A stretch of DNA of 64,000 nt from Branchiostoma floridae (lineage: Eukaryota; Chordata; Leptocardii; Amphioxiformes; Branchiostomatidae): contig NC_049995.1 in NCBI RefSeq assembly GCF_000003815.2, positions 15,018,976 to 15,082,975 on the forward strand, written 5' to 3'. Shown piece after piece: positions 34,324 through 64,000 of this stretch. The notes under the pieces are model-generated. The model saw only the letters and a program-made list of their open reading frames with translations. It did no database searches and had not been told where the DNA came from. The stretch's first letter is position 1; the number at the start of each line of letters is the position of its first letter. The position numbers and the translations under genes are program-made.

Positions 34324-37300
34324 ATGGCAGACATGGCAAGAGCGCCACTTCCGTCAGCGAACGGAGAGCGAACTACAGTCAACTGGCACGACCATCAGGT
34401 CACAGCGCTGAAGGTAAGACGAGAGAAGAGAAATGCGAGCCACATGATATGTATGCCGAAAGAGAAATTTATGATTCACGTTTCAAATTAGCTTATTGGA
34501 TTAAAATGTTTTTGTTTTATTCTCACATTTCTAAACCACTTGCAGTTAGCCTTCAGTCTTGACCTTGCATTAATGATTTTAAAAAAAAAGTTTCCGTAAT
34601 CAAACTGTACATGTGAAGTACGGTGTGGTGATTTTCATCTTCGTCCCATATTGTTCTATGACATGATTGTTTACGTAGTTTTGGAGCTACTTTCTATATT
34701 CCAGGTTGTTTTGTAGACTTGTAAACTAACCAATTATGATAGGTTAACTTTTTCTTTGCCATCTTTGACATCATCGAGGAGGAAAAAGGGGGAAATATAT
34801 ATGTGTACATGGGCGCTGCCCTTGTCAAAATGCTACTTATCCTAATGGCACAACCAGAGAGTACTTACTCCCAACGTTTCAGTGTCCGTCAGACACCATC
34901 ATCAGGGTTAGAATGGCTGGATACGATTCTCGCTGCTACTTATAGCCGATGTAGGTGGCGCTGCAGCAGTTAGGATGCTGTCCCAAATGTGACTCAGTTT
35001 GTATCCCCCCTCGCCTCTGTCTGACAGACACCGAAACGTTAGTAGTAAGTACTTCCTGGTTGTGCCTAAAGAACCTTACTATATGAATAAAATTGCTACT
35101 TATCCTAATGATTAATACGGTGACTTTTTGCTTTCCCCACAGCCGGACCCGCCCGAGTGCCCGCCCGTGAAGCTGGTGTGGTGTGGGGACATCAGTGGGG
35201 AGGTGGGCGTGATGGGCTCATGGGACGGCTGGAGCAAAGTCTGGAAACTTAACAGAAGGTTAGAGGAGTAAAGTAGACCCTTGTCTACTGTATATAGCTT
35301 ATAGACAAAACTTGTTCAGCTCTTGGAATAAGCCTTCCTCATGCGAAAACGGTGAAAGTCAGCACATAGCAAATATTTCCTTTAACTAGTCGAATTGCCA
35401 AAAAAGGAATGGAGTTTGTGGTGTCTTGTAGAAGTTTTCTCTATGGATGGATGGAATAAGGAAGTAACGGAAGATTCTGTTGTTCCAGTGAGAAGGGAGA
35501 GTACAGCGTGGCGCTGAAGATCCCCTGTGGTCAGCACGAGTACAAGTTCCTGGTCAACAACACCTGGTTTCACGACGAGACCAAGGTAAAGATATCAATA
35601 GCATTGAGTCACGATAAGTTGTTTTCTTGTATTTCTCGTGGAAACTAGACAAATTGTTGTTGACATCGGGTAATATCTATGATAACTGGCTTCCTACCCT
35701 CTTATACTTAGATAGTGATAAAAGATTATATTAGTGATATTTATTACGGAAACTGATTTTAGAGTTAAATCAGAATAATCCAGCTACCGTGAGAACTACT
35801 ACCTGTCAGAACCGTAAGAGAAGAATGCATGTAAAGCTATTTTAAGGGAAATAAAATATATCATAATTATGCAAATGAAAGAATAAAATCCAAAGATTCT
35901 CACTCCCTTTCTTGGCCCGCTCTCCTCCATAGCCGACTGTATCCAACTCGTTTGGGACCCTGAACAACCTCGTCAACGTAGTCAAACTTTCCAATGGTCA
36001 AGCGAAAGCCGGCATCAATGGGGCCCATAAGAAGTCTATCCCCGACGATATCCCAAACAAAACGAACAAGCCCCTTAAACCATCCGAACCGACTCTTCCA
36101 AACAAAACAGCCAACGAAAGCTTAGATGGTTACAAACAGAAGGCAACAACCGCCACCACCGCTACCACCACAACGCCCCAAATCCAGGAAATTTGCAAGC
36201 TTGAGACAGCCAAATTAAAAGAAAGCTGCAAAACGAAGACGACAACCGTCACCAGCAACAACGTGACAGGCCCCCAAATCCCCCAGGAGATTCGCAAGCC
36301 TGAGGAGGTTAGCTTTGGTGATACTGGATTCGGTCAGCACGCCAAGCCTACAAGCAATGGTCCGGCCGACAGCGTTCAGGGGAAAGGAGAAGTCTCCAAT
36401 AAAGAGCCCATGCTACAGACGTGCCCAGTGCCGAAGACCACCGCCAGCCGAGCTTCTCGTCCAGTAGTCCCACCCAAACCTGGGAATTCGACGACAGCCA
36501 CTCCTTCATCAGCAGTTAATCCAGACCCGCTACTCACCACTAAGGCGACATCTAAAGATGTCTGTGTTGTGGAACCAGTGCAACAGAAGTGTCCGCAGTC
36601 ACAGACGACCGCTTACCGGGTTCCTCCAGCTAAATCCCTACCTAAAGCTCCGACGAAGGCAACAACCACAGCTCCTCCACAGAACGCCAGAGCTCGTCCC
36701 GAGGTCCCACCAAAGCGTACAGCAGATAAAACAGGCAGGCCTGAAGTTGGAACTGTTGGAGGTACAAGAAATCCCGAAGCAGCACCGCCAACAGCAAGAA
36801 ATACATTTAAACAGCCTCCCGCGACGAAGCCAAAACCCACCCAGAAACGTGTGGTGACTTCACAAGCTGCATCCAGGACGGCGGCTAAAACTGTGGACGG
36901 CAAGGGGCCCTCCTCACAGTCTGGCCAGGCAGAGACTCGGTATTGTACCCTTAGTCCTTTGATATTAGTGGGATCGTCTTTTAATCAAGAAGTTCAGTAG
37001 AAGCCGTTTAATCGCACACCCAATCTACCAGCGTATTTCGTGCAATTGTCCGACGTGTGCAATAGTGCGACGTTGCCCAGTTGGACTTTTCGTCGTGCAG
37101 ATAAGCTACGAGGGGCATTCAATAAGTAATGCCCCTGACCCACTGCCAGTTGTCTGATCTAGATGAAATGTTGCATGTGTAATGAGTCATATCTCTATGG
37201 ATTATGTTGCAAAAAAACAGCTCTGAACTAATTGTGGTTACTGATTTACTGGTGTTTGAACTGAGTCAGGTGCGAAATGGACCAGGTGTGAAATGGAGCA

Positions 37301-38067
37301 AGTTGAGTGTCGCGCAGTGATCCGGTTTTTGTATTTGAAAGGACGCACACCAAAAGGGACTTTTGATGAAATGAAAAAAACTTATGGTGATGATGCCCCA
37401 TCATATGACCTTGTAAAACGCTGGCATCCTGAATTCAAACAAGGCCGGAAGTCTGTGGAAACAGCTCCCAGACCTGGTCGTCCCTCTTCTGCCATTGATG
37501 AGGCACCTGTCGGAGGACCAACCTGGGATGTCCTACAAGAACGGTGTCCAGAGCTACATCAAATGATGGGAGAAATGTGGGTGGTTCCTATGTAGAGAAA
37601 GACTAATAACTGTGCCAAGTTTCATTAATCTCCTGCTATGGGAAATGGGTCAGGGACATTACTTATTGAATGCCCCTCGTAACAATAGAGTGAATGGGAG
37701 CCGGTTTGGGACCTGGGGAATCCGTTCAATTGACAGAAGTGTGCGTTTATCTGCAATTTACTGGCTTCTAATGCACTGCATAGGTATCACTTGCACAGAC
37801 CGTCATATTTACTAACCGTAGCTGTATCAACATAAGCTTTCAGTGTTACCATAGCAAAGTTCTTTTTTGGGAATTTCCTAGTGCCGTTGGTGACTGTAGT
37901 TTTACTTCTCGTCGCTAGGCAGAGCTGCAATAATAGGAATGCAGCATCGCATATTACCTAACTAAAGAAAGTTTCATCGTACTTTGGCAACTAATGGAAT
38001 GTTTATCATCTTCTTTCTTTGTAGCCACAAGACGTTTGCTGGAAGAAAGGCCAAGACGAACAACTGA
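34324..38067 (+). CDS. Glycogen-module gene 1: single AMPK-type glycogen-binding domain with Pro/Thr/Lys-rich tail (450 aa)
   Basis: Exons: 34324-34413, 35143-35258, 35489-35585, 35933-36939, 38025-38067; all joins are in frame. Residues about 38-118 form a CBM48/AMPK1_CBM domain: VKLVWCGDISGEVGVMGSWD with GW, then YSVALKIPCGQHEYKFLV, NTWFHDETK, PTVSNSFGTLNNLVNV. These align with the sugar-contact Trp, Lys, Trp, Thr and Asn of the AMPK beta domain. The rest is a low-complexity, basic tail with weak internal repeats (TPQIQE and GPQIPQE; TCPVPKTTASR and KCPQSQTTAYR) and two PxxPxK motifs (PVVPPKP near 278, PEVPPKR near 357) of SH3-ligand type. It ends HKTFAGRKAKTNN. No AMPK-beta alpha/gamma-binding C-terminal domain is present, so it is not an AMPK subunit. 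It is probably cytosolic and tethers something to glycogen. The start ATG opens the exon directly after CAG. Confidence 0.85.
34847..35066. repeat. MITE in intron 1 of glycogen-module gene 1
   Basis: The inverted ends GGCACAACCAGAGAGTACTT and AAGTACTTCCTGGTTGTGCC enclose a core with CAGTGTCCGTCAGACACCAT. It is the same family as the elements at 23840 and 24239. Confidence 0.85.
37109..37679 (+). mobile_element. Deleted mariner-type transposon, 571 bp, in a gene 1 intron
   Basis: It is flanked by TA on both sides (37107-37108, 37680-37681), with 34-base terminal inverted repeats differing at one position (CGAGGGGCATTCAATAAGTA, then ATGCCCCTGACCCA). The open frame from about 37293 encodes the N-terminal helix-turn-helix region only: ECRAVIRFLYLKGRTPKGTF, DDAPSYDLVKRWHPEFKQG, APRPGRPSSAIDE. 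These are signatures of the mariner/GVQW3-like DNA-binding domain. The DDE/D catalytic domain is absent, apparently by internal deletion, so it cannot move by itself. Confidence 0.92.
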
Positions 38068-41000
38068 AGGTTTAATATAGGATATAGAGGTAGGAACAGA
38101 TGATAATATAATATTTCTTCTGACTGACTTTTTAACAATTAGTCATTCTTAGATAACTTTGCTATATGAACAATAGAACATGATTGACTCATCTCTTGTT
38201 TCATGTCTTTTTCTCCAGATCTGGAAAAACATGATGCAACGGAGACTTCGACAATGACCTAAGAAGATGCATGTAAATGCTCTATTACCATTGGTCATGG
38301 TGTCACGGTCGATCCTAATATTAAGAAGCTATGGATCGTACCAAAAAAACGAACAAACTAAAAAGAAACAGAAATTAAATGGAAAAGTTTATGAAAGCAA
38401 CCGTTACAATATCATTAATGACAGACAATTTCATGATCAATTGAAGTGCACAATTTGCCACACTTAGAATACTTTAAATGAAATAGAAGTCTTAAATAAT
38501 CTATTATTTGCTGCTTAAGAGCAGGTAGTTGTTGATTGTGGTTTAAACAGTATGTATGATAATTCTTAAGCATCTAGATGATACAAAATCAGACATCAGA
38601 TAAGTCAAAGCTATGCATAAATACATGCTGCAATGAAATAGGATGTTGTAGATGATGATACGCTGCTACGTGTAAATATGCTGCTACTACGTATGATTGT
38701 AACTATGACATTGATAGTATAGCTACTTTAAGCTGCTATAAATGATATATCATAATAACTGCCACGACCGATTCCCTTAGAGTTGTTGCTTGTATTTAAA
38801 ATATAAGGGATGAACAAAATGCTTGTAGCTGAACGTTCTAAACATTGTAGACGACAATCAAAGCAGGTAACTTGTTCAGTACATAATCACATGGGGTATA
38901 AGAGAGACTTCACCATTGAAAAGGGTTGCCCTATATGTGTGTTTTTTTGTGTACTTCTGTGTGGCTGCCATTTCCAACATACACCAAGATTAATGTGCCA
39001 ATTCACATAAGTCACCTTAGCTCAGAGGAACTGTCTCGTAAACCGGGGGTCGTGAGTTCAAACCTCACAGGTGGATGAAGTCGGTTTCTTGATCACTCTT
39101 CTTCTTCTAAACAAGAAAAGTTTGCACTAATATCTTACTTCTTTCTTATCGGAGAAAGGAGTACGTGTCCTTGTCTGTACAGCGATAGCCTGTATGCTAG
39201 ACTGTTCACAGGGCCAATACAGCCCAACTACAGCAGACCTCCGATACTCTGATAAACACGATAGATATTACTGAGATCCGGCTGGAGTCTGGTATCCGGG
39301 CTATTAGAGCGTTATCAGCCGCATAAATTCCACGTTATTTACCCTAGCTACTTCACAGATGTGCAAGCTGTTAGCCTGTGTTTACAACGACAATCTTTAT
39401 TGACACGACAAAAGTACAGCGACTTTCGTAAGGTCTACATGTATAACAACTACTTACAGTACAACTAAACACAAGCTCTCGTTGGCTGGGCTTAATGACC
39501 CCCTCCCCGGCGGCAATCGTAGGACCGGCCGCTAGGGGCGCAGTTTTAGTCAGGCTATGCAAGCTGTGATGTTTATCAAATCTAACATGTCAGAGTTGAA
39601 GCTTTGACATTTCGCTAGATCAGATCACACACCTCTCAGTATACAGTAACCTTAAAGTGAACAAACAGGTTTAGTCTCCGTCAGCTTGAAGACAAATACG
39701 TTTGTGGCGGACAAGCTCTGAAGTATCTAAGTCTATCATTGTCGTCCGATTTTTCCTCACAGGTAGGAATATATCCATTGTTCAAATTAATGATCTCTGA
39801 GGTAGGTTTGCTACGCTCCGTAGAAAGTTATAACATGGTCTTTTGAAACTAGAAAAAATTACAGTCTTTCCTCCTGGCTGGCTGTTGAAAAAGACCAGAA
39901 CAGTTTTCTTTGCGTAGTTACAAAGGATTTCTGCTTCTTCGTGGTTTCAACTGCAACACGTTGTGCTCGAAAGTTGCTAACATTTTGTTCAGAAAGTAGT
40001 TTATTAGGGTAGAGAAATATATTTACGTGACGAAGACAGGATCATTGTTTGTTTGTTTGTTGTGCACTCGTGCAAATATAATTCTATGTCATCCTGACCT
40101 TGCCGAGCGCGTTCGTAAAAGAGACATACAACATTGAAGAAAAGGCACACACAGAAAAAAACTAATATCTTTAGAAAATAGTTGTGAGATACCTATACAA
40201 GATAAGGTGGGATAATTGGTGGAGTGCTGGACGTGACCAGATAAGCAACTACAGTCGGTGTATTTGTGGTGCATCCAGGTAAACATAATTCCATGTCATC
40301 CTGACCTTACCGGTCAATGACGCGTTTGTAAGAGAGACGTACAATCTAAAGAAAAATCACATACAGAAAAGAATCAATAGCTTTTAAAAGGTGTCTATGG
40401 AGGCAGACGTGTCAAATGGATGATAGAAGAGAAGAATTTTTCCAAATAGGGACAAATAAGCAATGCCATGTGAAGTCAGTCTTTTTCAGTCCCCACTCAA
40501 AATTGGGCAAATTAAAGCGTATCTGAAACCATAGGTCCCTCTATAACGTCAGGTTACTTTGTCTTAATGCACGAAGAGGAGTGTGCACAATTGAAGACCA
40601 CATGACACTGTCGGCTTCATTCGTAAGCAAGCGTGACCAGATTAGCAACTACATACGGTGCTTTTGTTCTCCACTCAGGTGAACATAATTCCACTGTGTC
40701 ATGCTGACCTTACCTGTTCCGGACGCGTTTGTAATGGAGGCACACAAAATTGAAGACAGGTCACACACAGAACGTCTTTAAAAAAACGCTCCTGCTAGGG
40801 CAACCTCACTCCCCTGGGCACAAAGCAACGTGCGGGGCATTGTCCAGTAAAGTCTAGACGTAGAAAAAACGCTCGTTATGTTGTCATGTCGTAGTTGGGA
40901 TGAGACCATATTTCATATTTCATCTAAGCATATCGCAGTAGAGCGAAGGAAAGCGTACCTCGTCTTCACGTTACTTTCAAATTGTCTAAATACACAAAAA

Positions 41001-43835: not shown

Positions 43836-43857
43836 TAGCAAAAGGTCACGAGCCAAG

Positions 43858-44300
43858 ATGGCGGACCGAACAAAGGAATGTAGCCCTCTGACGGCCGAGA
43901 GGTCAAGTACAGCTGTCAAGGTAGGACTGAAATAGAAGAGTTATTCTATGTATGTAAATAAACGACTTAACTGCCATGTTTCCCCTTTCCCCTGCATTGC
44001 ATCACATGTACATAAGGTACTCTGTCATTGTCAAATATACATGCATTACCAGTTACAATCGTTGCGCAATAAACTTGACTTGACTTAACTATGAGGTCAA
44101 ATACGCAGTATGATTTTTATCAGTATTCTTTAAAAGCATGTGTCCAAAGTTAAAATCTTAAAGCTTGAAAAAGAGATGAAAACAAATATGATAACTTTAA
44201 TCACTCCACCCCAAGGGATTGATGTCCTGTTTTGTATTCTCTCTCTGTCTCCCCTCTCTCTCTCTATTTATCTCCCTCGCTGTCTCTCTCTCTCTCTGTA

Positions 44301-44337
<37 letters not shown>

Positions 44338-47300
44338 TTGTGTGTGTGTTGTGTGTGTGTGTGTGTGTGTGTGCTGTGTGTGTGCGCGTATGTGTTTGTG
44401 TCTGAGTTTGTGTATTTTTGCCTTGTAGTTTTGTACGTTCTGTCAGATGGCGCTTACTGTAGGAATTGGTGAAGTCTGTAATCTCAGATCGCCTTGTCGT
44501 CTAGATGCTGGCATAGTACGCTAAAGAAAACCTTAATAATTGCTTTTGTCCATAGGCCGGGGCAGAGGACAGCGTGCCTGTGACCTTTGTGCTGAGTTCG
44601 AAAGGAAGGACCAGCGGTGACGTGGTCATTCTGGGGTCATGGGACGACTGGAGTCAGGCACGGAAACTAGAAAATAAGTAAGTAGGACTCTAGTCTAGGG
44701 CTAAGCGAGTTTATCAAGCAAGCTTTTGTAAGCCAAGATTTTGACAAAATCGCCTCTGCAGTTCCAGAACAAGTCGCTAGGGGTCCAAACCATATTTGCT
44801 ATATCACAAGGCCACAGCATGCCCAGGTCAAAATATACCAAAAATAAGACTTAAAGTTCTGTTGCAATATCAAGGTCGCATGTCTGGTATTTTAAAATCT
44901 TTTGATTTTGTTGCAATTATGGGAATGTTTGTCTGAGTAATATTTATGTAAATTTCTGATATGTGTAAAATTGAAACCCGGAAAACCCTGCACAAAAATC
45001 CACGGATGATCATATATGTGAATGAGCTTTTTGATGTTTGTATGTTGTATTTAATGCTTTTATGTTTAGTTTGGTATGTGTTAGTTTAATATTGTATATG
45101 TAAACATTGTCATTGCAAGTTCTGATGTTTTTGTGAGTTTGTTAGTGCTTAGATTGTGGTATCTTTATGTATATGTGATGTGTTTATACTTGTGATTTCT
45201 TGTCTTGTATTTTTATATTTGTCCTTTTGTTGCAAATGGGAATGTTTGAGTAATATTTCTGTAAATTTGTGATATGTGTAAAATTGAAACCAGGGAAGGA
45301 AAACCCTGCACAGAAACCCAGGGATGACACCCCTGCACAGAAGTCCTGGGGAAGAAACCCCAGCACAAAAAATCCAGGGGGGATAAAACACCCCTGTAAA
45401 AAAAGTCCTAGGGAGCAAACCCTAGCCAAAAAAAGCCAGTGGGAATGGCCCCTGCAACAATATGTAAATGTGTTATAGTATATAGTACTGCATATGTCTA
45501 GATGATGGAGTAAATAGTAAGACACTAGTGTGTAAAATATGGTAAGGGAATGCTCGTGTAAATATTCTATAATGATTGTGTTTAGTTTTAAGTGATTATC
45601 TTTGAATGTTTTGTAATTTATAACTTGTGAATAAAATGTGAGAAAAAAAATATCAAGGTCGCATACCAGGGGGCCCAAAATTGACTTTGCCCTTTGTCTT
45701 CCCAACAGCTACTCACATACCTGATATCATCGTAATCTATTTAGAGGTTTTTGAGTTCTGCTAACTACAAATATCGGGAAACACAAACACAAAACACACA
45801 CAGACACCCACACACACAGCCTCACCCCAAACAATATCTCCATATTTCAGACATATAATCAGACTGATTGATCCTTACTATTATCTTGCAGGGAGGACAC
45901 GTTGGAAGCGTGTCTTGACTTACCCAGTGGAGACTATGAGTATAAATTCAAGATGGGCAAAACCTGGTTCTGCGACACGACAAAGGTATAGTGCACAGAA
46001 AGTTAACTTTCTCAACTAGAGTGCTATCCTTCTCTACGAAGGAAAAAGTCAATGCAATCTGTTTCATCTTAGCTTTGGCACAACCTATAAAGCTAAAAGC
46101 ATAGGCAGTTTACATGCCGGAACAAGACATGACTATAGTAGCCTTTAACAGGGGGCAGAGGCTGAATATTGAAGATGCCAACACTGATGTTTGAGAGACT
46201 TGTGCGCATTATAATGGACCCCAAACCAGTGTTTTTTTAACGAAGGGATTTGTGTTCTTTAGTTTCACCGTATCTATCCCCCACCTCCGTGTTCTACATT
46301 ATTCATTCACTCTAGAATATCCCATATCAAAGTATTATTTTCTATACAAAATTCACCTATTGAGAAGTTCCTCTTTACCTCCCTCCCCCACAGCCAGTAG
46401 TGCCGAACGTGTTTGGAACACTCAACAACTACATTGAAGTAGTCAAAGAGACGGATGGAGGCTCAGCTACAAGTTTTCCCGAGACGGTTCAAGTCACGCA
46501 TCTTGACCCTGAAATACTGCAGCAGGCACTTGCCAAAGTCTCGGAGGAGACACAAACGAGTGAGGTTGAAATTGAGAAAACTGACGAACGCAGCACTGCA
46601 GGAGGAGACGACAAGAATTCAACAACTTTTGTTGAAGAGCAGACGCCGATCCAAGAAGACAAGGTCTCGGAGGAGAAAGAAACGAGCAAAGATGGAGTTG
46701 AGAAAACTGATGAAAGCACTATTGCAGAATGTGTCAGGATCTCAGCAACATGTGTTGAAGAGAAGACGATCCAAGAAAACAAGGTCTCGGAAGAAAAAGA
46801 AGCGCCAGAAGATAAAATTGAGACAACTGATGAAAGTGGCATTGCAGAAAAAGACGACAAGATCTCTCCAACATGTTCTGAAGAGCAGACGATCCAAGAA
46901 GACACGGAGCCAACAGCGACAGTCGCACCACAGCAGTTTGTCATACAAGATTCACTGATGAGCATTTGTATGACGCCTGACATGCCTCCTCCAGTCATTT
47001 CAAAGCAGGCGACACATGAAGACAAGGATTTCTCCGAGGAAACAGTTTCACAGGGACGAAAAAGAGACGAGCCTACTGTCTGTGTCTGTAGAAAGCCAGT
47101 GCCGATTCCGGTCAGACCAGTTCCACAGGAGACTACTTCAAATGATGTCATCGAGTCTGAATCCGAGGCCATCACTGAAACAGCGTCACAAGATGAAACA
47201 GCTGCAGAGGGTTCTGAAGACACGAGTCAAAAGTCAAACGAAACAGCACAACAACATGAAGAAGTAGTAAAGGAAGAACAACCCGAGTTGACTATGGAAA

Positions 47301-50300
47301 CAAGAGTTGAGAACTTTGATCAAACTGCTGTTAGCGTGGTCGAAAGGCTTGAAGAAAAGGATGACATTAAAACAACAGCCCAAGAGACAACCCAAATGGT
47401 TGAAACAATCACTCCAGATGTCGAAAAGGAGTCGAAAGAAAGGGTTACACCAGATAGCGTTGAGAAAGAAGAGGACAATACTGTGCCGGAGGCAATTATG
47501 ATAAAAGACACAACAGGGAAAGGAGTTGCCTTTGTGGAAAAGGAGGCAAAACCAGACGAAAGAGCTGAAGATGAGGAAACTGTTTCACGGGAAGGAAAAA
47601 CAGACGAGCCTGTGATCTGTATCTGTTATAAACCAACTCCAGTCACACTAGTTCTATCACCAGAGACTACATCAGAAGATGCCATCGAGCCCAAATCCGT
47701 GGCCACCACTGACACAACATCACCAGATAAAACAGTAGGAGATATTGCTGAAGGCACTGATAAAAAGCCAGACGAAACAGCACAACAACAAGAAGTAAAG
47801 GTGGTGGAAGAACAACCTGAGTCGTCTGTGGACGAAGAAGATGGGAAGCCAGTTGAACAGGCTGCAGATGACAATGTTCAGAAGGTAGAAAGCGTAGAAG
47901 TTTCCATGGAAACACCATTACGAGATGAAGAGGTTGAAATAATTGATGAGAAAAGAGAAGAAGTTGTCCAAGACATCAAAGAGAAGCCAGATCAGAAGGT
48001 TTCCAATGAGGAAACACCTCAGAACGAAGCAACTGAGAGGCCTGACCTGGACGTTAGTGACAAATCAGAGGAAAAGACTTCTTCTCAGACAACACATCCA
48101 GACCAAGCAGCTGACGAGGACGTCATAGACATTGTAGTGCAGTCGGTAGACGAAACAGTTGTTAAAGCTGCCCCAGCCGCGGGTGAGACGTTTGAAGAGA
48201 ATATTCATACCGAAGTCACACTACCAGATGAAACGATTAAAACAACTGTGCCATGTACTGTGGCTGCACCGGAAGAGATAGATGAAACAAATGTTTGGCC
48301 ACCACAAGAGATAACTATTCAAGAAGCTGTCACGAATCTTGAAACTGCAGTCATAACAGAATCGCCTACACAAGACAAAGACGATACTGCAGCAGACTTT
48401 GTCGCTGCAACAGACGAATTGGCTGCGTCCGAAATCCAGCGACGAGTGACAGATTCAGTTCAAGAAGTTTCCCCACAAATCGCTGAAAAGGTAGAAGATC
48501 AGGACGCTACAGCTACAAAAAAAGATGAGGAATCCTCCGAAATACCTCAGTCAGAGGGAACCACTCATGACACTGTGTTGGTAACGTCTGAAGACGTATA
48601 TGAGAAAGGTCATTCTGAAATATCTCCAACTAAGGAACCAGTTGAAGTAATTGTCTTAGACACTGTTGAAAAATTGGACGACACTACCCAGACGGAAACC
48701 CCACCGGCACTGCCAACTGGAGTAGCAGACACTGCTGAGAAAGTTACCTCCAAAACAGCACCAACGTTTGAACCTACACAGAAGGATGCCCCTGACATAG
48801 CTGAAGAGGTGAAGGTTATAACGGTAAAGATTACGAAGGAACCACAGACAGGCAAACCATTTAAGGCGGCTGCTTTACAAAGCAAAACGTATGCTCAGGC
48901 TGTCAAGGACAGTTTCCCCAAAGTTGAGAAGACCGTACAGGAAAACGGAGACATGTCAGATGTGGGCGAAACTCACAAGGAGACACCACCAAAAGACAAG
49001 TCGGTCGATGAGACTGTGCCAGAAAATGTGGAACTACCAAAAGAGGAAGTTACTGAAATGCTGCCATCAGAAAAAGTCGAGGAGAAAGTGTCAGAAAAGG
49101 AGGAGCTAACAAAAGAAGAAATCCACATCGATGCACCATCCGAAGACATAATCATTAAGACGATAGTAGAGCCACAAAGCGTGGAGTTTGGAGAAGAGAA
49201 AGTTCACACAGAAACTCCACCACCAGACAAGCCAGTTGAGAGGGTAGTATCAGAAAAGACGGAAGAACCTAAAATGGAAATCCACACTGAAACTCCACCA
49301 GAAGACAAAACGCCTGAAAACACTGTACAACAGCAACAAGTAGAAGTGGTGGAAGAAGAGAAAGAGGAGGTACAAGTCGTAGTACAAGAGAAAGTACAAA
49401 CAGAAACACTATCACCAGACAAGACAGTTGAGACGAAAGTATCAGAAAAGATGGAAGGACTGGAAGAGGAAGTCAGCATTGAAACGCCACCAGAAGACAA
49501 AACGGTAAAAGAGACTGTAAAGCCACAAGTATCAGAAGTGGTAGAAGAGACAATTCAGACAGAAGCTCCAGATAAGCCAGTTGACGAGAAAGTATCAGAA
49601 AAGGTTGAGGAAGCAAAAGAGGAAATCCACACTGAAGCACCACCAGAAGACAAAATAATTATGACGACTGTACAGCCACAAAACGTGGAAGTGGTAAAAG
49701 AGACAATTCACACAGAAACTCCACCACCAGACAAACCAGTTGACGAGAAAGTATCAGAAAAGGTGGAGGTACCAAAAGAGGAAATCCACACTGAAACACC
49801 ACCAGAAGACAAAACGGTGGAAACGACTGTACAGACACATAAGGTGGAGGTGTCAGAAGATACAGTTCACACAAAAACACAACCACCAGACAAGCCAGTT
49901 GAGAAGGTGTCAGAAACGGTGGAAGTAACAAAAGAGGAAGTCCACATTGAAGCGTCAACAGAAAACGACAAACCAGTTGAAAAGATTGTACAACCACAAC
50001 AAGTATCAGAAGTGTCAGAGAGGCAAGTTCATACAGAAACTACACAACCAGACAAACCAGTTGACGATAAAGTATCAGAAAAGGTGGAGATACCAAAAGA
50101 GGAAATCCACACTGAAACACCACCAGAAGACAAAACGGTGGAAACGACTGTACAGACACAAGAGGTGGAGGTGTCAGAAGATACAGTTCACACAGAAACT
50201 TCACCGCCCAAAAAAACAGTTGAGATAATAGTATCAGAAAAGAAGAAGGTAGTAAAAGAGGAAGTCCACACTGAAACGCCACTAGAAGACAGATCCGTTA

Positions 50301-53026
50301 AAGAGACTGTGCAACCACAAAAGGTGAAAGTGGTAGAAGATAAAGTTCAACCAGAAACTCCACCATCAGACAAGCCAGTTGAGATAATAGTATCAGAAAA
50401 GACGGAGGTAGTAAAAGAGGAAGTCCACACTGAAACACCACCAGAAGACAAGACGGTTGAAAAGACCATACAACATATAACAGTAGAAGTGTCAAAAGAG
50501 GAAAGTCACACAGAGACTCCACCAACAGACAAGCCAGTCGAAAAGAAAGTATTAGAAAAGGTTGAAGTACCGAAAGAAAAACTCCACATTGAAGCAAAAT
50601 CAACAGTTGAGGAAACAGCCCCACACATAGTGGAGTGTTACAAAACTATTCACGAAATACTGACAGAGACAGAACCAACAGACAAAACAGTCGAAATAAA
50701 AGTATCTGACAAGGTGGAAGTACCAACAGAAAAACTCCACACTGAAGCAGAATCAATAGTTGAGAAAACAGCCCCTCCCAAAGTGGAGCCATGTTACAAA
50801 ACCATTCACGAAATCCTGATGGAAGATACTACAGAGAAGATCCCACTGTTTGAGTATACCCAGTTCACACTTGTATGTAAGGAGGAGACCAGTGGTGACG
50901 TGTTCGTTCAAGGATCATGGGACGGATGGAAGGAGTCATTCAAACTCAACAAAAGGTAACGTTAAATCTACTAAATGACTGGTAGATTACTTTGCCTTTC
51001 TCATGTAGTTTTAAACGTTGAAGTTGTAAACGTTGCTCCTATATGTTATTGATTGTTATTCTAGATCTTTCCTTGTCAAATTTAAATCAATTTGTATTGT
51101 CTGTCAGCAGCGCTAGCCCGTTGTAATAGCCACAGGCGGCTAGTTGGGCAGCCCTGGATATGCGAGCTGAATAGCCAAACCTATAAGTGAATAGATGGCT
51201 ACACAACGAGATTTGTGATGCCACGCTGTTAGCGGTAGACGTAATTTTGGGCCGTTGCCACTTTCTCGCCACTTTTGTTCTCTTCAATTCTTTGAAACTC
51301 GTTTCTTCAAATTCTTTTTGTAGTGAAGACGGAAGCTACAGCGAATCTGTGATGCTGCCATACGGTCTACATGAGTATAAGTACCGAGTTGGAAACAGTT
51401 GGATCCACGACGACACAAAGGTACATAGACATAGGTGAAACATATAGACACTGCATATTGTACTGAGGAAGACGTATGAAAGGCATTGAAAAGCCAGTAC
51501 GAGAGTAACTGGTTGGGAAAAGAAACGATCCAGTATAAATTGCACTCCTCATTTCCTTACCACAGTCGGCAGTTCGCAACGCGTTCGGTACGATAAACAA
51601 CGTGCTGAGGGTCCCCGCTGAGGCCGGAGGGAGCGAGTCTGTGGAGATACCGCCTGAAGAAGATAACTTAATAACTAAATTTAAGTCTCTGGTAATTTCT
51701 AAACAGCTGTTACGCTTCTACTCCACAGGCCGCGGTACGTAATGCCTTTGGTACGATAAACAACGTGCTGAGAGTCCCCGCAGAGGCCGGAGGGAAGGAT
51801 TCATTAGAGATCCCACCAGAAGAAGACTCTGACCTGGAGGAGTGTATGAGGGTCCGGCTGGACTGGACAGGAGAGGCGACCGGAGACGTGTTCGTGTCGG
51901 GGTCTTGGGACGGCTGGACACGCAGCTGGAAACTAAAGAGGAGGTAAGTTCTGTTCTGTCTCGTTCTGTTAAGCTAAGGTCACAAACCGCCGTGCGTGCA
52001 GTTGCATGGTGTCTACGTACTACGAGGAGTGTAGTAGGGTCAGGCTGGACTGGACGAGGCGAGCGGGAACGTGTTCGTGTCCTGGTCCTGGGATGGATGG
52101 ACGCGATCCTGGAAACTCAAGAAGAGGTGAGAAAAACTAGCCTGGGTACGGATTAACCTTTGGATCAATCACACGCGTGGCTGTGTGTAAGTTCGTGTGG
52201 TCGAACTGCAGGGTGTTCGATCAGAATTCGAAGCCAAAGGCCCTGGGTTCAAATCGCAATATGCTACTGGTCTTGCGTTTGGGAGGTAAAAGGCAGTGGA
52301 AGGAGAGGGACGGGCAATACGTGTCTCCATACATACTATTACTATTTAAGTAAAGTTCGGTCGACAATACATCTTCAGAGGTTTCGGTTTGTGGATTAAA
52401 AATTAGAGATGAACATTCGAAAGGTGGCTTTTGTACATCTTTTTCAAAAGTTGATGCCTTTTTCTTTCTTCTGTTTTGCAGGAATGACAATGAGTACAGC
52501 GTGTCCCTGACTCTACCCTGCCGCCAACACCAGTACAAGCTCAGGGCCGGAGACACATGGTTCTACGACCAGACAAAGGTAAACGCAGGTGTAAATAGCC
52601 TCTACCAGGCTCCGCGGTTTGCGGTCAAATAATGCACATTCAATGCACATCCTGTACGGTACAAATAGTACGCTAAGGGAGTCGATCGGCCATTGGAGTC
52701 AGTATGTCAGCCACTTACTAAGATGGCACCAATGACTACTTTTACAGGTTACAGCGTGAAGAACCATGGTCTATTTAATATGTTTTATTTATATAGGCTC
52801 TACCAGGCTCCATGGGTCGCATACTGATGGCCGGCAGACTGCCCTAGCGCACTATTGTTGACTCTATTGGCTTTTATCATGTCACTGGATTCTCATTGAT
52901 TTTTGCATCTCTTTTCAGCCGACTGTTCCCAACAGTTTTGGAACCTTTAACAACACCATTGAAGTCGCCGCGCCGCCCGCAAATGTGGCAAAACCCTGGG
53001 GCAAGAGAAAACTGACGGACTTCTGA
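43858..53026 (+). CDS. Glycogen-module gene 2: three AMPK-type glycogen-binding domains joined by a PEVK-like linker (~1785 aa)
   Basis: Exons: 43858-43920, 44556-44677, 45892-45985, 46394-50955, 51324-51420, (optional 51566-51691), 51729-51943, 52482-52578, 52919-53026; all joins are in frame (1785 aa, or 1827 aa with the optional exon). Domain 1 (about residues 28-108): GDVVILGSWDDW, DYEYKFKMGKTWF, NVFGTLNNYIEV. A 4562-bp exon then encodes about 1470 acidic residues rich in E, T, V, P and K, with an ~53-aa unit (KEEIHTETPPEDKTVE) repeated about ten times at 49109-50600. Domain 2: GDVFVQGSWDGW, HEYKYRVGNSWIHD, NAFGTINNVLRV. Domain 3: GDVFVSGSWDGW, HQYKLRAGDTWFYD, NSFGTFNNTIEV, ending PWGKRKLTDF. 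The residues that touch sugar in AMPK beta are kept in all three. No enzyme domain is seen. Inference: a long flexible glycogen cross-linker or scaffold. Confidence 0.85.
44200..44420. repeat. CT then GT microsatellite
   Basis: A CTCTCT-rich run at about 44238-44300 is followed by a GTGTGTG-rich run to about 44400, interrupted by GCGC. It lies in intron 1 (coding) of glycogen-module gene 2. Confidence 0.95.
44882..45648 (+). mobile_element. LINE-type retroinsertion, ~767 bp, with 16-bp target duplication
   Basis: The 16-base direct repeat AATATCAAGGTCGCAT occurs at 44866-44881 and 45649-45664. The insert ends AATAAAATGTGAG plus a run of A, the pattern of target-primed reverse transcription. 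It carries no recognisable protein. It includes a short tandem repeat at 45285-45430 (CCCTGCACAGAAACCCAGGG and similar), and TAAATTTGTGATATGTGTAA occurs twice. The host repeat resumes right after it, matching the copy at 28990-29225. Confidence 0.85.
49000..50610 (+). repeat. Coding repeat inside glycogen-module gene 2
   Basis: Units of about 53 codons (150-165 bases), each made of an A half (VHTETPPPDKPVEKVSEK) and a B half (KEEIHTETPPEDKTVE). B halves start near 49109, 49270, 49467, 49617, 49775, 49932, 50096, 50257, 50416 and 50572. The copies at about 49775 and 50096 are identical over roughly 60 bases, indicating recent two-unit (321-bp) exchange. Indels are multiples of three, as expected for coding DNA. 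Confidence 0.9.
51566..51691 (+). CDS. Optional duplicate FGT exon of gene 2
   Basis: 126 bases, phase 0 at both ends, AG acceptor after CTTACCAC and GTAATT donor. It reads SAVRNAFGTINNVLRVPAEA and continues to EEDNLITKFKSL. It duplicates the start of the next exon (51729: AAVRNAFGTINNVLRVPAEA) but lacks its following glycogen strand. Either copy can follow exon 51324-51420 in frame; only the second leads on directly to domain 3. Confidence 0.6.
52016..52129 (+). pseudogene. Frameshifted relic of a fourth glycogen-domain exon
   Basis: GAGGAGTGTAGTAGGGTCAG through CTGGAAACTCAAGAAGAG copies 51838-51943 and keeps a GTGAGA donor. A net 4-base loss (ACGAGGCGAGCGGGAACGTG versus the 24-base parent segment) shifts the frame, and no acceptor precedes it. 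Confidence 0.75.
52180..52330 (+). repeat. SINE-like repeat with B box
   Basis: CCTGGGTTCAAATCGCAATA matches an RNA polymerase III B box. It is followed by TTTGGGAGGTAAAAGGCAGT and GGAAGGAGAGGG, a tail also found at 18648-18680 next to TRPV exon 3. It is a short dispersed element. Confidence 0.55.
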
Positions 53027-55060: not shown

Positions 55061-55074
55061 CGGTTTACATACGT

Positions 55075-55899: not shown

Positions 55900-56440
55900 T
55901 TTTGTCAAGTCGCTAGGTCGCAGGGTTGACGCAGTGAGGTCGCGGCAAGATCGCAGAGTAAACGCAGTAAGGTCGCCGCCCTTGTGGAATAGGACTGCTA
56001 TCAATACGAGACATACGTGACCAGCAGCCATTGTAAAGGTTCGCAGACTTGTCGCAGTGAGATCGCAGGCTGGTCTTATCAAGGTCGTAGAGTAGTCAAA
56101 GCAAGGTTTCCGCCTTTGTGGAATGGGGCTGCTATTAGTACGAGTTGCATGTAACGTCCTCGTAAAAGGTCGCATACTGTTCGCGTAGTGAGGTCGCAGG
56201 CTGATCGTAGCAAGGTCGCAAATTAGTCGCACCAAGGTTTCCGCCTTTGTGGAATGGGGCTGCTATTAGTACGAGTTGGATGTGACCTGCCGTCCTCGTA
56301 AAAGGTCGCATACTGTTCGTAGTGAGGTCGCAGGCTGATCGTAGCAAGGTCACAGATTAGTCGCAGCAAGGTTTCCGCCTTTGTAGAATAGGACTGGTAT
56401 CAGTACGAGGTGCACGTGACCAGACGTCCTTGTATAAGGT
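55900..56440. repeat. Tandem repeat, ~135-bp unit rich in AGGTCGCAG
   Basis: Four diverged copies contain AAGGTTTCCGCCTTTGTGGA, GGGGCTGCTATTAGTACGAG, CGTCCTCGTAAAAGGTCGCA and GAGGTCGCAGGCTGATCGTA. The 9-base word AGGTCGCAG and close variants recur within each unit. Confidence 0.9.
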
Positions 56441-56477
56441 CGCAAACGGTGTATAGATCACGAGCTGAGTGGTTATC

Positions 56478-57530: not shown

Positions 57531-59170
57531 CGATTTATCCTCTTAAGAGAGGTGACACTGACCTTCATCGACGAGACAGCTTACAATGTATTACCGCGGA
57601 TACGTTTGAACTAGAATAATGGAGCTGACTTAACTCCTTTACCAAGGGGTATTTTTATCCAAGACAATGACATTATAAACGGTCATTCACTCAGACACAC
57701 TGAAAGGTTATTTTTTGGTACTATATAATAGCGTTTGGGGGTGGTGTTCGTCGGAGAGTCGGGCAAATTTTTTCCAAGGCCCTCCCCTCCTATCAACTTT
57801 GAAATATATTCAAGACGTCAATACAATGTAGATCACTGCGCCCCCGTTTGGAAATGTCCTTTGCACCATACATACGTACCTTTGATACTGTTTTCTTTTT
57901 ATCACGAAGCAGATATGTCTAACCTTCATCGACGAAGCAGATAATCATTTATTACTGCGCAAATGCTTGAAGCCAGAAGAATTGAGTTAGCTCACTCACT
58001 TAGCAATGCATCATTATCATCCCAGACAATGTTTGGCGTACTCTTATTACCTGGATGTCTAACCTTCATCGACAAAACAATTAATCATTATTACCATGGT
58101 TACATTTGAACTAGAAAAATGGTGTTAGCTTGCGTCTTTGCCAATTGCATTGTCACCCCAGACAATGGCATCATGAAAGCCTCTATACACAGAAACGTCT
58201 TGCAGCAATGCACCAGTCTGAGTTATCACTAGCTTCGTATACATAGTTGACTGTCTGCTTATTAGACAAACAGCCAATACAATAAGCAGTAAGTCAAATA
58301 TATGAAAAAAATGTTTCCAAAATTTTCAAAAATCATATCTTATAGCGTATCTTATTACCTGCATAGACGTTATTTGACCTTCATTGACGAAACAGATCAT
58401 CGTGTATTACCGTGGTTACGTTTGACACAAGAAGAATTGAGTTAGCTCACTCCTTTACCAAGGGCATTGTCGCCCCAGACAATGACATTACAAACGGTCA
58501 ATCACTCAGACTAACTTTCATCACCGAAAGGATAACCGTTAATCACCTTGGATACGCTTGACGCCAGAAGAATGGGTTTAGCTCACTCATTTGCCAAGGG
58601 TATTGTGATCCCAGACAACGGCATTATAATCGGTCAATCACTCAAACACCTTCATAAACATAACGTCTGGCAGCAATACAACAGTCTGATTTTTTACTAG
58701 CTTGGTATACTTAGTCAGCTGACAAACGGATAATACAAAATGAGTTACTCAAGCAACTGGATATGATCTTGGAAATTTTCCAACTTTTACCAACACCATA
58801 ATTTAGTTGCTTAAAGCCAAAAGAATAGAGACAGCTCATTCCCCTTCCCAAATACTGTAAATCTGTAAGTTCGCGGGGATCTAATTTCGTAATTTCGCGG
58901 TAGCGGGGAAAAGGACTTTTCGCGGTGGATTTAAGTTCGCTGTAACACCATAGACTGCAATCTACTAGTAATATCATAATAGAAAAATGTTCGCGGTGGT
59001 TTTAAATTCGCGGTGAAGTGATCACCGCGAAAACCGCGAACATTAATCAACCGCGAACACTTTTACATTTACAGTACATCGTCGTCGACGTCCCAGACAA
59101 CGGCATTATAAACGGTCCATCACTCAGACACCTTCCTACAAAATAACGCCTGGGACTAATACATCAGTCT
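57530..59170. repeat. Degenerate tandem repeat, ~160-bp unit
   Basis: About six diverged units share TAACCTTCATCGACGA, TTAGCTCACTCCTTTACCAA, CCCAGACAATGGCATTA and CGGTCAATCACTCAGACA. The TTCGCGG element at 58853-59076 has inserted in one of them. Confidence 0.8.
58853..59076. repeat. Short TTCGCGG MITE
   Basis: The inverted ends TACTGTAAA and TTTACAGTA flank clusters of TTCGCGG and CCGCGAA, as in the longer element at 14558-15160. Confidence 0.85.
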
Positions 59171-59828
59171 GGTTTATAACTAGCTTGGTATAAATTAATT
59201 ATGAATTAGTTGTAAATTATCTATGAATTTTCTATTAATTCTAATGCACGGTCACGACCTACTGCCGATGATAACACTCGTGTATGTATCTTATTTATTT
59301 GTTGCTATGGAACATGACCATGTTCTTAAGATCAATGAATCGAGAAAGACATCTAGACATAACAATTTTATGTATGGCAATATAAAATAGATCTATGTAG
59401 AAATTTAGTCAAATATATTCTTTTGTTACTTAGCTTGTTATGAGAAGTTGATTTTATTATAGGGGAGGAGGTCTTAGCTCAAAAGCTACATTACACTTTT
59501 CCCCCCTCATGCACCTTTTAATGTATGCATTATGTTTTATGTATAATAAAGTTATCCCTGTACAAATAAATAAGAATAGAAAAATATCCAGCTGTTTTTC
59601 CAGGTCTGGAGACTTGTACGTGCTGTACGTGTGCTTACCGATGAATAAGGCTTTACCCAATAAGGTCAGTATAACCCATTTATTATTGTTAAATAAGGTC
59701 AGTATAACCTATCTATCGTTGTTCTGCTGTAAGAAGACAGATGGTGAATCGGTTAATAGTGCTTTGGTAACTGTTACGCTAGTTCACCTTTATCCGAGGG
59801 GTCACCCTTTTCCGTTGTTTTGAAAAAA

Positions 59829-59930
59829 CAGGGGATAAGGGATATCAAGCCGACGAACAGTGGTTTCAACTTGCAATATTTTCAAAATACTGCAGTTTGA
59901 ATCCACCGTCCGTGGACTTGATATCCCTAA
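59829..59930. repeat. Small imperfect MITE
   Basis: The left arm GGGATATCAAGCCGACGAAC continues AGTGGTTTCAA. It mirrors the right arm TTGAATCCACCGTCCGTGGA followed by CTTGATATCCC. Confidence 0.7.
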
Positions 59931-60111
59931 AGGCCCCTATTTTTTAAGCAACGAATATCTATTAGGTTACCCCGCGGATAAAGGTTTTTTACTGTTATAC
60001 CAATTGTGCAGACGATATTCTTTGGTCATTTTAGAGACAGTATAAACGTATTATGGGTTTTACAATACGGTGATTCTTTTTCCCCACAGTGACAAAACGT
60101 CACAAATCAAG

Positions 60112-63100
60112 ATGGCGGAAGCAACAGAAAAATCACGCCCTCTACCGGGTGGAGCGCCGAGTGCAGTAAAGGTGAGACGGTCTTGACGGAAATAGAAGTA
60201 TGGCAAAGCCACAAAATATATGAATGATCAATGATTTTTTACCTTAATAATATATACTAAGGGTGTTATTATCTGCTCTTCTATCATCCAAACCATTACC
60301 ACAACGTGTGTACATATGTGTGTGTGCGCGCTTGATAGTGTGAGATACGAAGTAAGCATGAGGAAAAACTGACATCTTTTTCGTCCTACTTTCTTCTGTT
60401 CTAACTGCTTTATAAAGAAGAGAATATTTGTGTCCAGTTAGACATTTGTTTGTACCATATAAATAATTGATTTTTTGTGAAACGGACAGGACAAGTCGAT
60501 TACGTTTGGTAATAATACATGTATTGACAACACATACATGCTTTTGTCACCAATATTTATCCACAGTCGGAGGAAACCGACACCGTTGCCGTGAAGCTGG
60601 TGTTGGATGGGGAGATTGCGGACGATGTGGTGATCCGCGGGTCATGGGACGACTGGAGCAGAGACTGGCAGCTAGAAAGGAAGTAACGTATTAAATCACG
60701 TAAAAGACGTTTAGATATACTAGTGTGAATCATATGTGGTATAGAGGACAATGTTTCAAATACTAGTATAACAGCAAATTGTTATGCGTGAAAGCTTTTG
60801 CATGTCAATACTTCAAGCAGTGAGATTGCTTGGTAGGGAAACTCGTATTGACTAAATGCATAGTTGCTCAATTTGAGTGACACAAGCACTCACCATGAGT
60901 TTTCAGTCTCTTCGACGTTAATTAGATTTCTCCTTCAAAGCGCTGAGTTTCATGGAAACCGGAAGTACAATGACGTCAGGAGTGAATCAAAAGTGGCGGA
61001 CGTGCTTTCTTTGTATTGACACATATTTCAAATTGTGGGAGATTTCTTCTGTAGATTGCAACTTCTCCCGACTTTTACACGTTTCTATCATTCAAGATAT
61101 GCATCTAATATCGTCATATGTCTTAACGTTCCGTGTTATCATTATTTTCCCTTTCAGCAAGAAAACGTTAGAGAACCGTTTTTGCCTTGACCTGCCCTGT
61201 GGCTACTATGAGTACAAGTACAGAGGAGGAAGGAGATGGTTCTGCGACAAGTCTAAGGTATCATATAACTATTTATCGTTAGATGTCTGATGTTAGATTG
61301 CTGACGAAGAATCAGTATTTATAATCACACCGATACAAATTACTTCAAATTATTTTCAATTCACCAGTTGAAATCCCAGTCAGCCTTTGTGACAAGTAGT
61401 AAAAACCTTTCTCAGCGACTGAAAAACATGTACACGTACAACAACATTAAAAATCTCCCATTTTCACTCTCCAAGGTATATATAAGTGATAGATAATGCA
61501 AATATGTTTTAAGTGCATAATGTAGACTATAACAAATACATGAAAAAATATGATGTGGCTTTCAAACGAGTGTTATCTTCACTGTTATCTGTGAATTATG
61601 AAGCAAACACATAGAGAAATTCACACTAGTGACTTCAATTCTTGTCTCCGTTTGATTTCAAAATCTTGTTTTTCAGCCGATGGTACGAAACGCGTTCGGA
61701 ACGCATAACAATTACATGGAAGTAAAGAAAGTGCCTGAGAGTGCCAGCCCTCTCGTTCAAGGCCTGCGATCCAAAGTGGCTCATGCCAATATGAAGATAC
61801 AGAAAAAGGTGGATCTAGAAATCCTTCCTTCGGGAAAGGATAAAAAACAGGAAGAGATCGCTGTTATGGATGTAGAAAAGCAATTCCAAGATACCGACGA
61901 GTTCGAAACCCTAGAAAACGACCTAGAAGTAAAGAAAGTTTCTGACGACGTGTCTACCAATAAGGTTGCTCATGTCAGTGTAAGGATAGAAAAGAAAATT
62001 GATCTAGAAACCGTTGATATTGAAGAGCCTGGATCGAAATTAGAGTATGAAACGAAAAGGCAGGATGAAACATCTCAAGACAAAAAGAAGACACAAGAGA
62101 GCGTTGACGTAGAAATCCTTAAAGCGTCAGAATGCAGTGCACAAACCGGACAAGAAACAGAGGCCACAAAGCCTGTCCATGGTACTAAAGAGGGGTCCAC
62201 AGTCAGCGATCCAAGTCTTGCGTTAGTGCAAACGGAAAAGGATGATATTGTTTTTATCAGCAACGATAGAAAGTCTGATATCAAAGCTCTAATAGAAACA
62301 GCAAAACAAGATGTTAATGAAATGGAGGCTGCGTTATACAACATGGCGGTTCTACACGCTGACATGGTCGAATATAAAAGCGTTCTACAAACTGTCGAGA
62401 AATCAGAGGAAGAGGGTGATCTCGATGCAACAGGAAAAATTGTATCTGCTGGACGTATCCATCAAGATTTAAAGAAGAATTTGGAAGAAGAAGCTTCCAA
62501 AGAAAAAGTGCCACTATCAGAAAATGAAGGACAAACGTCAGTCACAGATTCTACCGAAAGGACTGAACAGAAAGCCTACACCGAGACATCAGAACTAGAC
62601 AAGATAACTGAAAAGCCTGTGCATCCGAGAGAAGACCTAGATTTCGCAATAATACCGCTACCGGATGAGAAAGATGATGCAACCGTACAAGACATCTGTG
62701 GAGGGTTAGACGAGAGGGTTTGCCCTGAGATGACCTCCCCGACGTCAGCAACAAGCAGCAGCAATGGTTGGATCGTTGTTGACGAGTTAGAAGACGAAGC
62801 CACACCTCATGCATCAGTACAACATGAAAGCGTTGAGGAGGTTATCCAACACGCGGATGAAATATTGGAAGAGATTTCCATAACAGAGACAACGACAGAC
62901 GAAACAATTGTGGCTACCCAAGGCATTGCTTATAAGGTTCAAGACACATGCGTTATCGAAACAACTCCGTCAGACAAAACGACTGAGAATGGTAATGAAA
63001 TGTTGAAAGAGAGTTCTACTACAGAAGCGCCATTAGACGAAACAGTTATGACTACCGAGGATGTAGTTGACAATCTTCAAGACACAGCAACCGGTGAAGC

Positions 63101-64000
63101 ACCATCTTCAGAGAACACAGTGAAGATTGCCGACATAAAGATGGTGGAGCAGATGGAAGATATGACCGCTACTGAAGCATCATCAACACTAGAGGAAAGA
63201 GTGAAAGACGTTGCTCCAGCGGTTGGAGGTACTGAAGTGAAGCTGGTGTGGAAGGGAGAGAGCAGAGGAGTTCTGTATGTACAGGGTTCATGGGACGGAT
63301 GGAGACAAGCTCATAAACTTACCAAGAGGTGAGGCCTTGTCTATATTGTAAGGCTTCTCTCTCTCCCTCTTCCCATCTCTCCTCCCTCTCTCTCCCTATC
63401 TCTTTCTCTGTATCTACATGTATCTCTATGTTACAAAATGATATAGATAGACAGATAGCTCATCCTGGACAATCAAAACAAAAATGCATGCAATGTGTTT
63501 TGTTTTTTCTTTTGCAGTGAAGGAGAGGTGCAGAGTGTTACCCTGACGTTGCCGGTGGGTCTCCACGAGTATAAGTTCCGAACTGGGAACAACTGGTTCC
63601 ATGACGAGACAAAGGTACATGTAACTTGTTCTAGTAAAGACTAGTCTTAATTGAGAAAATTTTCATTTTGAATCTGTTAATTATTCCTTTCTAAGTAAAA
63701 AAATGACACATTAAAGCTTATTAATTCAAGATTGTTTCTTACAGCCAACCATGCTGAACGCGTTTCGCACGCTCAACAACATACTTCAAGTGTCGGGAGA
63801 AACTTCTGAAGAGACTATCTCCTTAGAAGTGACCATGCCAGACGATACACTGGAAGCAACCGATCTGTGTACGAAAGAGAACAACGATTTCACAAAAGCT
63901 CCAACGTTAGCTGAAACAACAGGGGACGTTGTCTCGGCTATGGTCGTCATGGAAGACAAAATGTCCTCTCAAAAGCCTGTTTCAGACGGTGTGCATCAGA
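60112..64000 (+). CDS. Glycogen-module gene 3: two or more AMPK-type glycogen-binding domains (3' end beyond the window)
   Basis: Exons: 60112-60171, 60567-60682, 61158-61257, 61677-63328, 63518-63614, 63745 to the window end; all joins are in frame, at least 760 aa. Domain 1: VAVKLVLDGEIADDVVIRGS with WDDW, YYEYKYRGGRRWFCD, NAFGTHNNYMEV. The long exon encodes a 530-residue acidic linker. It has a helical, heptad-like patch (ALIETAKQDVNEMEAALYNM, LHADMVEYKSVLQTVEKSEE) and LIR-like motifs DEFETL (F168), LDFAII (F415) and NGWIVVDE (W457). Domain 2: VKLVWKGESRGVLYVQGSWD with GW, HEYKFRTGNNWFHD, NAFRTLNNILQV. Its FRT replaces the usual FGT (Gly to Arg). An open acidic linker then runs off the end, so more modules are likely. 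The first exon (MAEATEKSRPLPGG..AVK) and the 20 bases before the ATG resemble gene 2. The role as a glycogen adaptor is inferred. Confidence 0.85.

Follow-up and report, generated by a model that had tools for sequence, protein, structure and literature searches.

A family of kinase-free, partly multi-module proteins with AMPK-type glycogen-binding modules in Branchiostoma floridae

Analysis of a 64,000-nucleotide stretch of the Branchiostoma floridae genome (C17:15018976-15082975, hereafter the window), followed by searches of the 513 Mb genome, identified AMPK-type glycogen-binding modules in kinase-free, partly multi-module proteins of an animal. These proteins belong to the AMPK1_CBM domain family and are not AMPK beta subunits. 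The family, larger than first noted, comprises at least seven genes and 13 modules, with four genes in tandem (genes 1 to 4) and three dispersed; a single AMPK beta gene was found, on C1. We regard it as probable, with some reservation, that these are proteins with the carbohydrate-binding module (CBM) only, which bind glycogen, derive from an AMPK-beta gene or share its exon set, and were multiplied within and between genes.

An earlier note made from the letters of the window alone had proposed that the modules are of the AMPK type, and profile searches bore this out. Nine spliced pieces were scanned, and all nine exceeded the Pfam AMPK1_CBM cut-off of 26.8 bits, with 49.2-69.6 bits for the eight single-module pieces and 122.2 bits for the two-module piece; the piece for gene 3 module 5 was scanned without its exon C. 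In PDB searches, the best relatives of the gene 1 module (1z0m, E 5e-15) and of gene 3 module 2 (4yef and 1z0m, E 1.1e-10) were the glycogen-binding domains of AMPK beta-1/beta-2. Weak matches to the plant glucan phosphatases LSF1 and SEX4 were also found (8j5d, E 4.4e-7; 3nme, E 1.7e-4), but no phosphatase family was reported in the scanned pieces. At E 0.01, the scanned exons of genes 1, 2, 3 and 4 contained no family besides AMPK1_CBM pieces. Of the pieces scanned, only the C1 AMPK-beta module had the Pfam CBM_48 model listed, and one of nine (gene 4) had CBM_20, at 13 bits versus a cut-off of 23.3; elsewhere in the genome CBM_20 matches lie on C12, C1 and C8.

Gene models were joined at GT-AG sites. 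Three consecutive genes start on the + strand of the window, at 34324, 43858 and 60112, as the earlier note had described, and the start exons that it took to be common to them are present as a short exon beginning MAD or MAE in each (common first exons MADMARAPLPSANGER..ALK, MADRTKECSPLTAERSSTAVK and MAEATEKSRPLPGGAPSAVK). The repeated unit has three exons: A carries GSWD(G/D)W, B a YK motif and, in most cases, W(F/I).D, and C carries F(G/R/V/N)T.NN. Exon C is continuous with a linker; genes 2 and 3 have the following exon A joined on as well. Of the motifs first proposed, HEYKF and F(G/R)T.NN are not fixed forms and vary between modules (F V T and F N T also occur). The modelled introns are GT-AG and the frames stay open, including a 1531-codon open frame in gene 2, with the exception of the gene 3 linker exon between modules 3 and 4, which carries a transposon-like insert. 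Gene 1 (34324-37000, + strand) has four exons encoding 456 residues and one module, and gene 2 (43858-53026, + strand) eight exons encoding 1785 residues and three modules. Gene 3 (+ strand) extends from 60112 to ~71676 in window-based numbering and has five modules, the first two complete within the window. The features of these genes in the window are as follows.

34324..34413, +, gene 1 first coding exon (MADMARAPLPSANGER...ALK), from the splice model
35143..35258, +, gene 1 module exon A (GSWDGW); AMPK1_CBM 69.6 bits when joined with exons B and C
35489..35585, +, gene 1 module exon B (HEYKF..NTWFHDETK), from the splice model
35933..37000, +, gene 1 module exon C (FGTLNN) and P/T/K-rich linker up to the stop; no family when this exon was scanned alone
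43858..43920, +, gene 2 first coding exon (MADRTKECSPL...AVK), from the splice model
44556..44677, +, gene 2 module 1 exon A, from splice model and profile scan
45892..45985, +, gene 2 module 1 exon B, from splice model and profile scan
46394..50955, +, gene 2 long exon with module 1 exon C, E/T/V/K-rich linker of ~1476 residues and module 2 exon A, from open frame and splice model
49382..50593, +, imperfect tandem repeat in the gene 2 linker, 159 bases (53 residues), 7.6 copies, from the repeat scan
51324..51420, +, gene 2 module 2 exon B, from splice model and profile scan
51566..51663, +, gene 2 spare exon C, an alternative end or a remnant; 51560-51663 is 82% identical to 51723-51826
51729..51943, +, gene 2 module 2 exon C and module 3 exon A, from splice model and profile scan
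52024..52131, +, gene 2 decayed duplicate of exon A in two pieces, 91% and 80% identical
52482..52578, +, gene 2 module 3 exon B, from splice model and profile scan
52919..53026, +, gene 2 module 3 exon C and stop, from splice model and profile scan
60112..60171, +, gene 3 first coding exon (MAEATEKSRPLPGG...AVK), from the splice model
60567..60682, +, gene 3 module 1 exon A, from splice model and profile scan
61158..61257, +, gene 3 module 1 exon B, from splice model and profile scan
61677..63328, +, gene 3 module 1 exon C, linker and module 2 exon A, from splice model and profile scan
63518..63614, +, gene 3 module 2 exon B, from splice model and profile scan
63745..64000 (exon to 65234), +, gene 3 module 2 exon C and the beginning of the next linker, from the splice model

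The array was followed for 40 kb past the downstream edge of the window. Gene 3, correctly taken before to be cut by the window, continues there, its exon from 63745 running to 65234 and the gene to ~71676. The module numbers first given (one, three and at least two) agree with the models, and the count for gene 3 reaches five after extension; exon C of its module 5 (71614-71676) directly follows a 100-N gap. Within the exon that links modules 3 and 4 lies an insert of ~970 bases (L003:2232-3201; window-based 66232-67201) with TTAA at both ends and perfect inverted repeats of 22 and 26 bases, which we take to be a piggyBac-type non-autonomous element. Gene 4 lies downstream of the window (~77820-86200) and has one module (77820-80681), separated by an in-frame TAA (L004:6679-6681) from a 1313-codon open frame; this TAA may be an allele, an error or part of a short intron. 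Its first exon is altered (L004:3030-3142), with the start codon seemingly lost, so that translation could start in exon A, and a possible terminal exon with RCCRCF lies at ~86151. In gene 1, a donor-like site near 36940 makes an extra 3′ exon possible, and neither of two listed candidates was picked as a last exon resembling that of gene 4.

Genome searches with single modules as queries recovered the cluster and three one-module genes beyond the array, on C11 (~14682261-14684840), C230 (~16544-19816) and C6 (~9671578-9674085), whose modules score 48.1, 55 and 57.5 bits with AMPK1_CBM, respectively. The tandem array of the earlier note thus stands for its three genes in the window, but it also continues to gene 4 and has these dispersed members. 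The lineage-specific expansion proposed in that note would be one possible account of the family, the searches having covered this one animal genome. Searching the genome with the AMPK1_CBM model returned only the C1 AMPK-beta exons at E 0.001, probably because each module of the cluster is split over three exons. The copy numbers are lower bounds; the C6 gene, for example, was missing from two of the single-module searches. The C11 gene contains an 8-residue repeat (GVPSATKD type) across ~364 residues, and the C6 gene a 16-residue repeat (PASAAEVPEDNAAPAV type). A further match at C11:13018289 (E 0.18) was inspected and dropped as chance, and a Cornifin match of the C11 protein was regarded as a short-repeat match, not as homology.

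The alpha/gamma-binding domain of AMPK beta (AMPKBI) was found in the genome only at the C1 AMPK-beta gene, using the Pfam model and the gene's own AMPKBI protein (next match on C16, E 4.8), and was not reported in the scanned linker exons of the cluster genes, which excludes the family members from the AMPK beta subunits. A tblastn search with the species' own AMPKBI on the fetched cluster and the C6, C11 and C230 stretches gave one match at E 0.012, the next being at E 1.3 or above; in the control search with its own CBM, module pieces in the cluster, C6, C11 and C230 were recovered, from E 2e-4. The match, at 80230-80325, is a translated C-run, and we take it as chance. The N-terminal glycine used for myristoylation is likewise missing, genes 1-3 reading MAD/MAE and the C1 gene MG. 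The earlier statements that genes 1 and 2 end without the alpha/gamma-binding domain and that the proteins are not AMPK subunits both withstood these tests. Like AMPK beta (PRKAB1/2; the C1 gene), the family has the AMPK1_CBM module, the two intron positions and phases within it, and most glycogen-contact residues. It differs in that no AMPKBI was found, in having no MG- start, in its long linkers, in the multi-module chains of genes 2 and 3, and in reading GSW(D/N).W for GSFN(N/E)W and F for L146.

The exon structure of the modules is that of the AMPK-beta gene. The C1 gene has a phase 2 intron at LNK-S, following exon A, and a phase 0 intron immediately ahead of PSVDNQLGTLNN, following exon B; both phases recur in all 13 family modules. 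A residue alignment was made of 12 modules, with the later-found C6 module left out and gene 3 module 5 lacking exon C (n = 11 at exon C positions), and in all 12 it is the S108 column that holds the split codon, matching the C1 gene. The shared intron positions and phases are most simply explained by descent from a gene of the AMPK-beta type; a common, older exon set might also account for them. In a tree of the 12 modules and three AMPK-beta modules, the two groups stood apart with 100/100 support. Gene 4 fell in with the first modules of genes 2 and 3 (91/90), and gene 3 modules 2-4 formed a group of their own (93/97), with both nodes below the tool's 95/80 mark, suggesting that the genes were duplicated before the inner module of gene 3 was multiplied. 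The synonymous divergence (Ks) among these inner modules is 0.37-0.51. For gene 2, the spare exon C at 51566 and the broken spare exon A at 52024 point to module loss. The ratio of nonsynonymous to synonymous divergence (Ka/Ks) was calculated for 66 module pairs, 23 of which were saturated; the 20 pairs of lowest Ks gave 0.21-0.48, and the three pairs with Ks under 0.6 gave 0.32, 0.35 and 0.48. The modules are under purifying selection, supporting the view that these are real, constrained coding exons.

Apart from L146, the residues known for sugar contact are largely kept. W100 is conserved in 12/12 modules, K126 and W133 in 11/12 each, and T148 and N150 in 11/11 each, N150 being a contact that we presume. 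Read by eye, the L146, G147, T148 and N150 places are F, N, T and N in gene 3 module 5 and F, G, T and N in the C6 module. In rat beta-1, W100, K126, W133, L146 and T148 touch the sugar and their mutation lowers glycogen binding, incompletely for L146A (PMC2642990). From the residue pattern, together with a report on G147R considered below, the modules of genes 1 and 2 and the first module of gene 3 would be expected to bind glycogen, gene 3 modules 2-5 and gene 4 more weakly.

The long linkers described in the earlier note are present, that of gene 2 spanning 1476 residues; with 18.6% E, 12.6% T and its 53-residue repeat, it is probably an unfolded spacer. Basic-aromatic or cysteine stretches in three of the seven readable C-terminal regions, not a general feature, make a membrane-binding tail plausible. 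In scoring basic-aromatic 16-residue windows of six genes against 500 shuffles, the best window was matched by 0/500 shuffles in each of C11 and C6 and by 14/500 in the spliced reading of gene 4, with a score devised after the tails had been seen. The gene 4 open frame ends in a hydrophobic stretch that resembles a tail anchor but is probably intron, with a donor-like site before it and the possible terminal exon after it.

Taken together, the proteins are probably glycogen-gripping scaffolds with long disordered linkers. In this proposal, the three-exon module would have been retained from the AMPK-beta gene, without the myristoylation-type start and the C-terminal alpha/gamma-binding domain, and multiplied inside genes (one, three and five copies) and between them (four tandem, three dispersed). 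To judge from its residues, each module may clamp an alpha-1,4/1,6-glucan chain through the AMPK-beta site, and chains with several modules, spaced by long acidic tethers that are probably disordered, would allow multivalent attachment to glycogen particles. In some members, more speculatively, a basic-aromatic and/or cysteine C-terminal region could hold a membrane, so that the protein positions glycogen; here we infer the glycogen ligand, the multivalency and the membrane end alike. The full version of this idea is that an animal lineage built glycogen-to-membrane tethers from AMPK's module, with the module(s) N-terminal, a long disordered spacer behind and, in some members, a C-terminus that is basic-aromatic or could be palmitoylated, and that the three- and five-module versions could cross-link glycogen particles. 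We offer it tentatively and consider it rather unlikely, its probability being lowered by the end of gene 3. The counterpart, convergent if so, would be vertebrate STBD1 (genethonin-1), which has CBM20 at its C-terminus and an N-terminal membrane anchor (PMC5358331). The comparison extends only to a way of working, with a glycogen-binding module at one end and membrane attachment, here proposed, at the other; unlike STBD1, the family has AMPK1_CBM at the N-terminus, modules unrelated to CBM20, and at most a basic/cysteine C-terminal region.

Several observations weigh against glycogen-binding scaffolds derived from AMPK beta. The AMPKBI match at E 0.012 does occur in a gene 4 intron, exon-by-exon searches are weak, and the AMPK1_CBM model itself missed the cluster, so that the missing AMPKBI match is no proof; the absence of AMPKBI from the family is well supported, not proven. 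The tail score does not single out gene 1 (239/500) or C230 (466/500), the best window of gene 2 (16/500) falls inside a module, that of gene 4 lies ~125 residues ahead of the C-terminal end, and gene 3 ends in NVINVTMTT without a basic-aromatic tail; the end of gene 4, a gene with an in-frame stop, depends on a last exon that is not proven. All 11 aligned modules have F for L146, and G147 is G in 7/11, R in 3/11 and V in 1/11, with N in gene 3 module 5. G147R has been reported to disrupt binding in part (PMC6274970). Gene 3 module 4, one of the four G147-substituted aligned modules, has W133 replaced by R, and the C230 module carries K126R. The changes at L146, G147 and W133 would fit structural or other-ligand proteins in which the fold is kept and glucan binding lost or altered, a reading that we find improbable given that the two tryptophans and the lysine persist in 11 or 12 of 12 modules and Ka/Ks lies below 1. 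The latter, with the GT-AG sites and the 1531-codon frame, also leaves it scarcely credible that the cluster is decaying and unexpressed, for which the insert with TTAA ends in a gene 3 coding exon, the in-frame TAA and altered first exon of gene 4, and the decayed extra exons of gene 2 would speak.

Two regulatory roles have also to be set against glycogen-binding scaffolds. The modules might bind the kinase domain of AMPK, as the beta module does, in its place or in competition with it, with no heterotrimer formed. The AMPK-beta exon structure common to the modules and the serine at the S108 place in 6/12 of them are compatible with such AMPK regulators, as is the position of the module on the kinase N-lobe in AMPK (PMC4995730); with that serine lost in 6/12 and docking needing neither multi-module chains nor a 1476-residue linker, the reading is about as improbable as that of altered ligands. 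Still more doubtful is a nutrient-signalling role like that of fungal Abl1 and yeast Mdg1, in which an N-terminal domain would read a sugar signal and a disordered tail relay it to partners. These proteins have an AMPK-beta-like glycogen-binding domain, N-terminal in Abl1, without the remaining beta subunit, and Abl1 acts upstream of TOR (PMC5266329). The family likewise has a glycogen-binding-type domain without AMPKBI, and the layout of the single-module genes 1, 4, C6, C11 and C230 matches; the repeated modules of genes 2 and 3, by contrast, favour multivalent polymer binding. The fungal proteins apparently have one module, and the likeness is drawn from descriptions, at the level of the shared domain only. 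They qualify the earlier statement that no family with this architecture had been described: no animal family of kinase-free AMPK1_CBM proteins was found in the open-licence literature, among the matches listed and in the excerpts available, but Abl1 and Mdg1 are single-module precedents (PMC5266329).

The function of AMPK's glycogen-binding module within the kinase has been called unclear or not well understood (PMC5805978; PMC4995730). Having at least seven kinase-free relatives, which carry 13 modules, beside the one AMPK beta gene found, this animal offers a way to study the module's glycogen-binding role separately from kinase regulation, and its G147R modules are the natural equivalent of a laboratory-made mutation. 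Should the proposed membrane tails be real, they would represent a second, independently evolved glycogen-to-membrane attachment in animal cells. Laforin orthologs, counted as three open reading frames, have also been reported from Branchiostoma floridae (PMC2714694).

Other elements were observed around the array. The window contains an ankyrin-repeat match at 18543-19301 and, at 26487-27283, three adjacent similar frames with FYIT(Y/F)EQ..EY.E.F.DFEHTMLTLFKLT, the last running into an Ion_trans match (44 bits). The three frames resemble pore exons of a channel, presumably TRPV-like, that were duplicated in tandem and are possibly used as alternatives. Between genes 1 and 2, a Mos1-type transposase helix-turn-helix match was found at 37260-37595 (HTH_48, 34.8 bits). 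Downstream of gene 4, on the minus strand, a 1068-codon frame (L006:1556-4762) reads by eye like a reverse transcriptase of the type without long terminal repeats (non-LTR; YADD). Between genes 2 and 3, a 134-base tandem repeat of 3.8 copies occupies 55945-56444.

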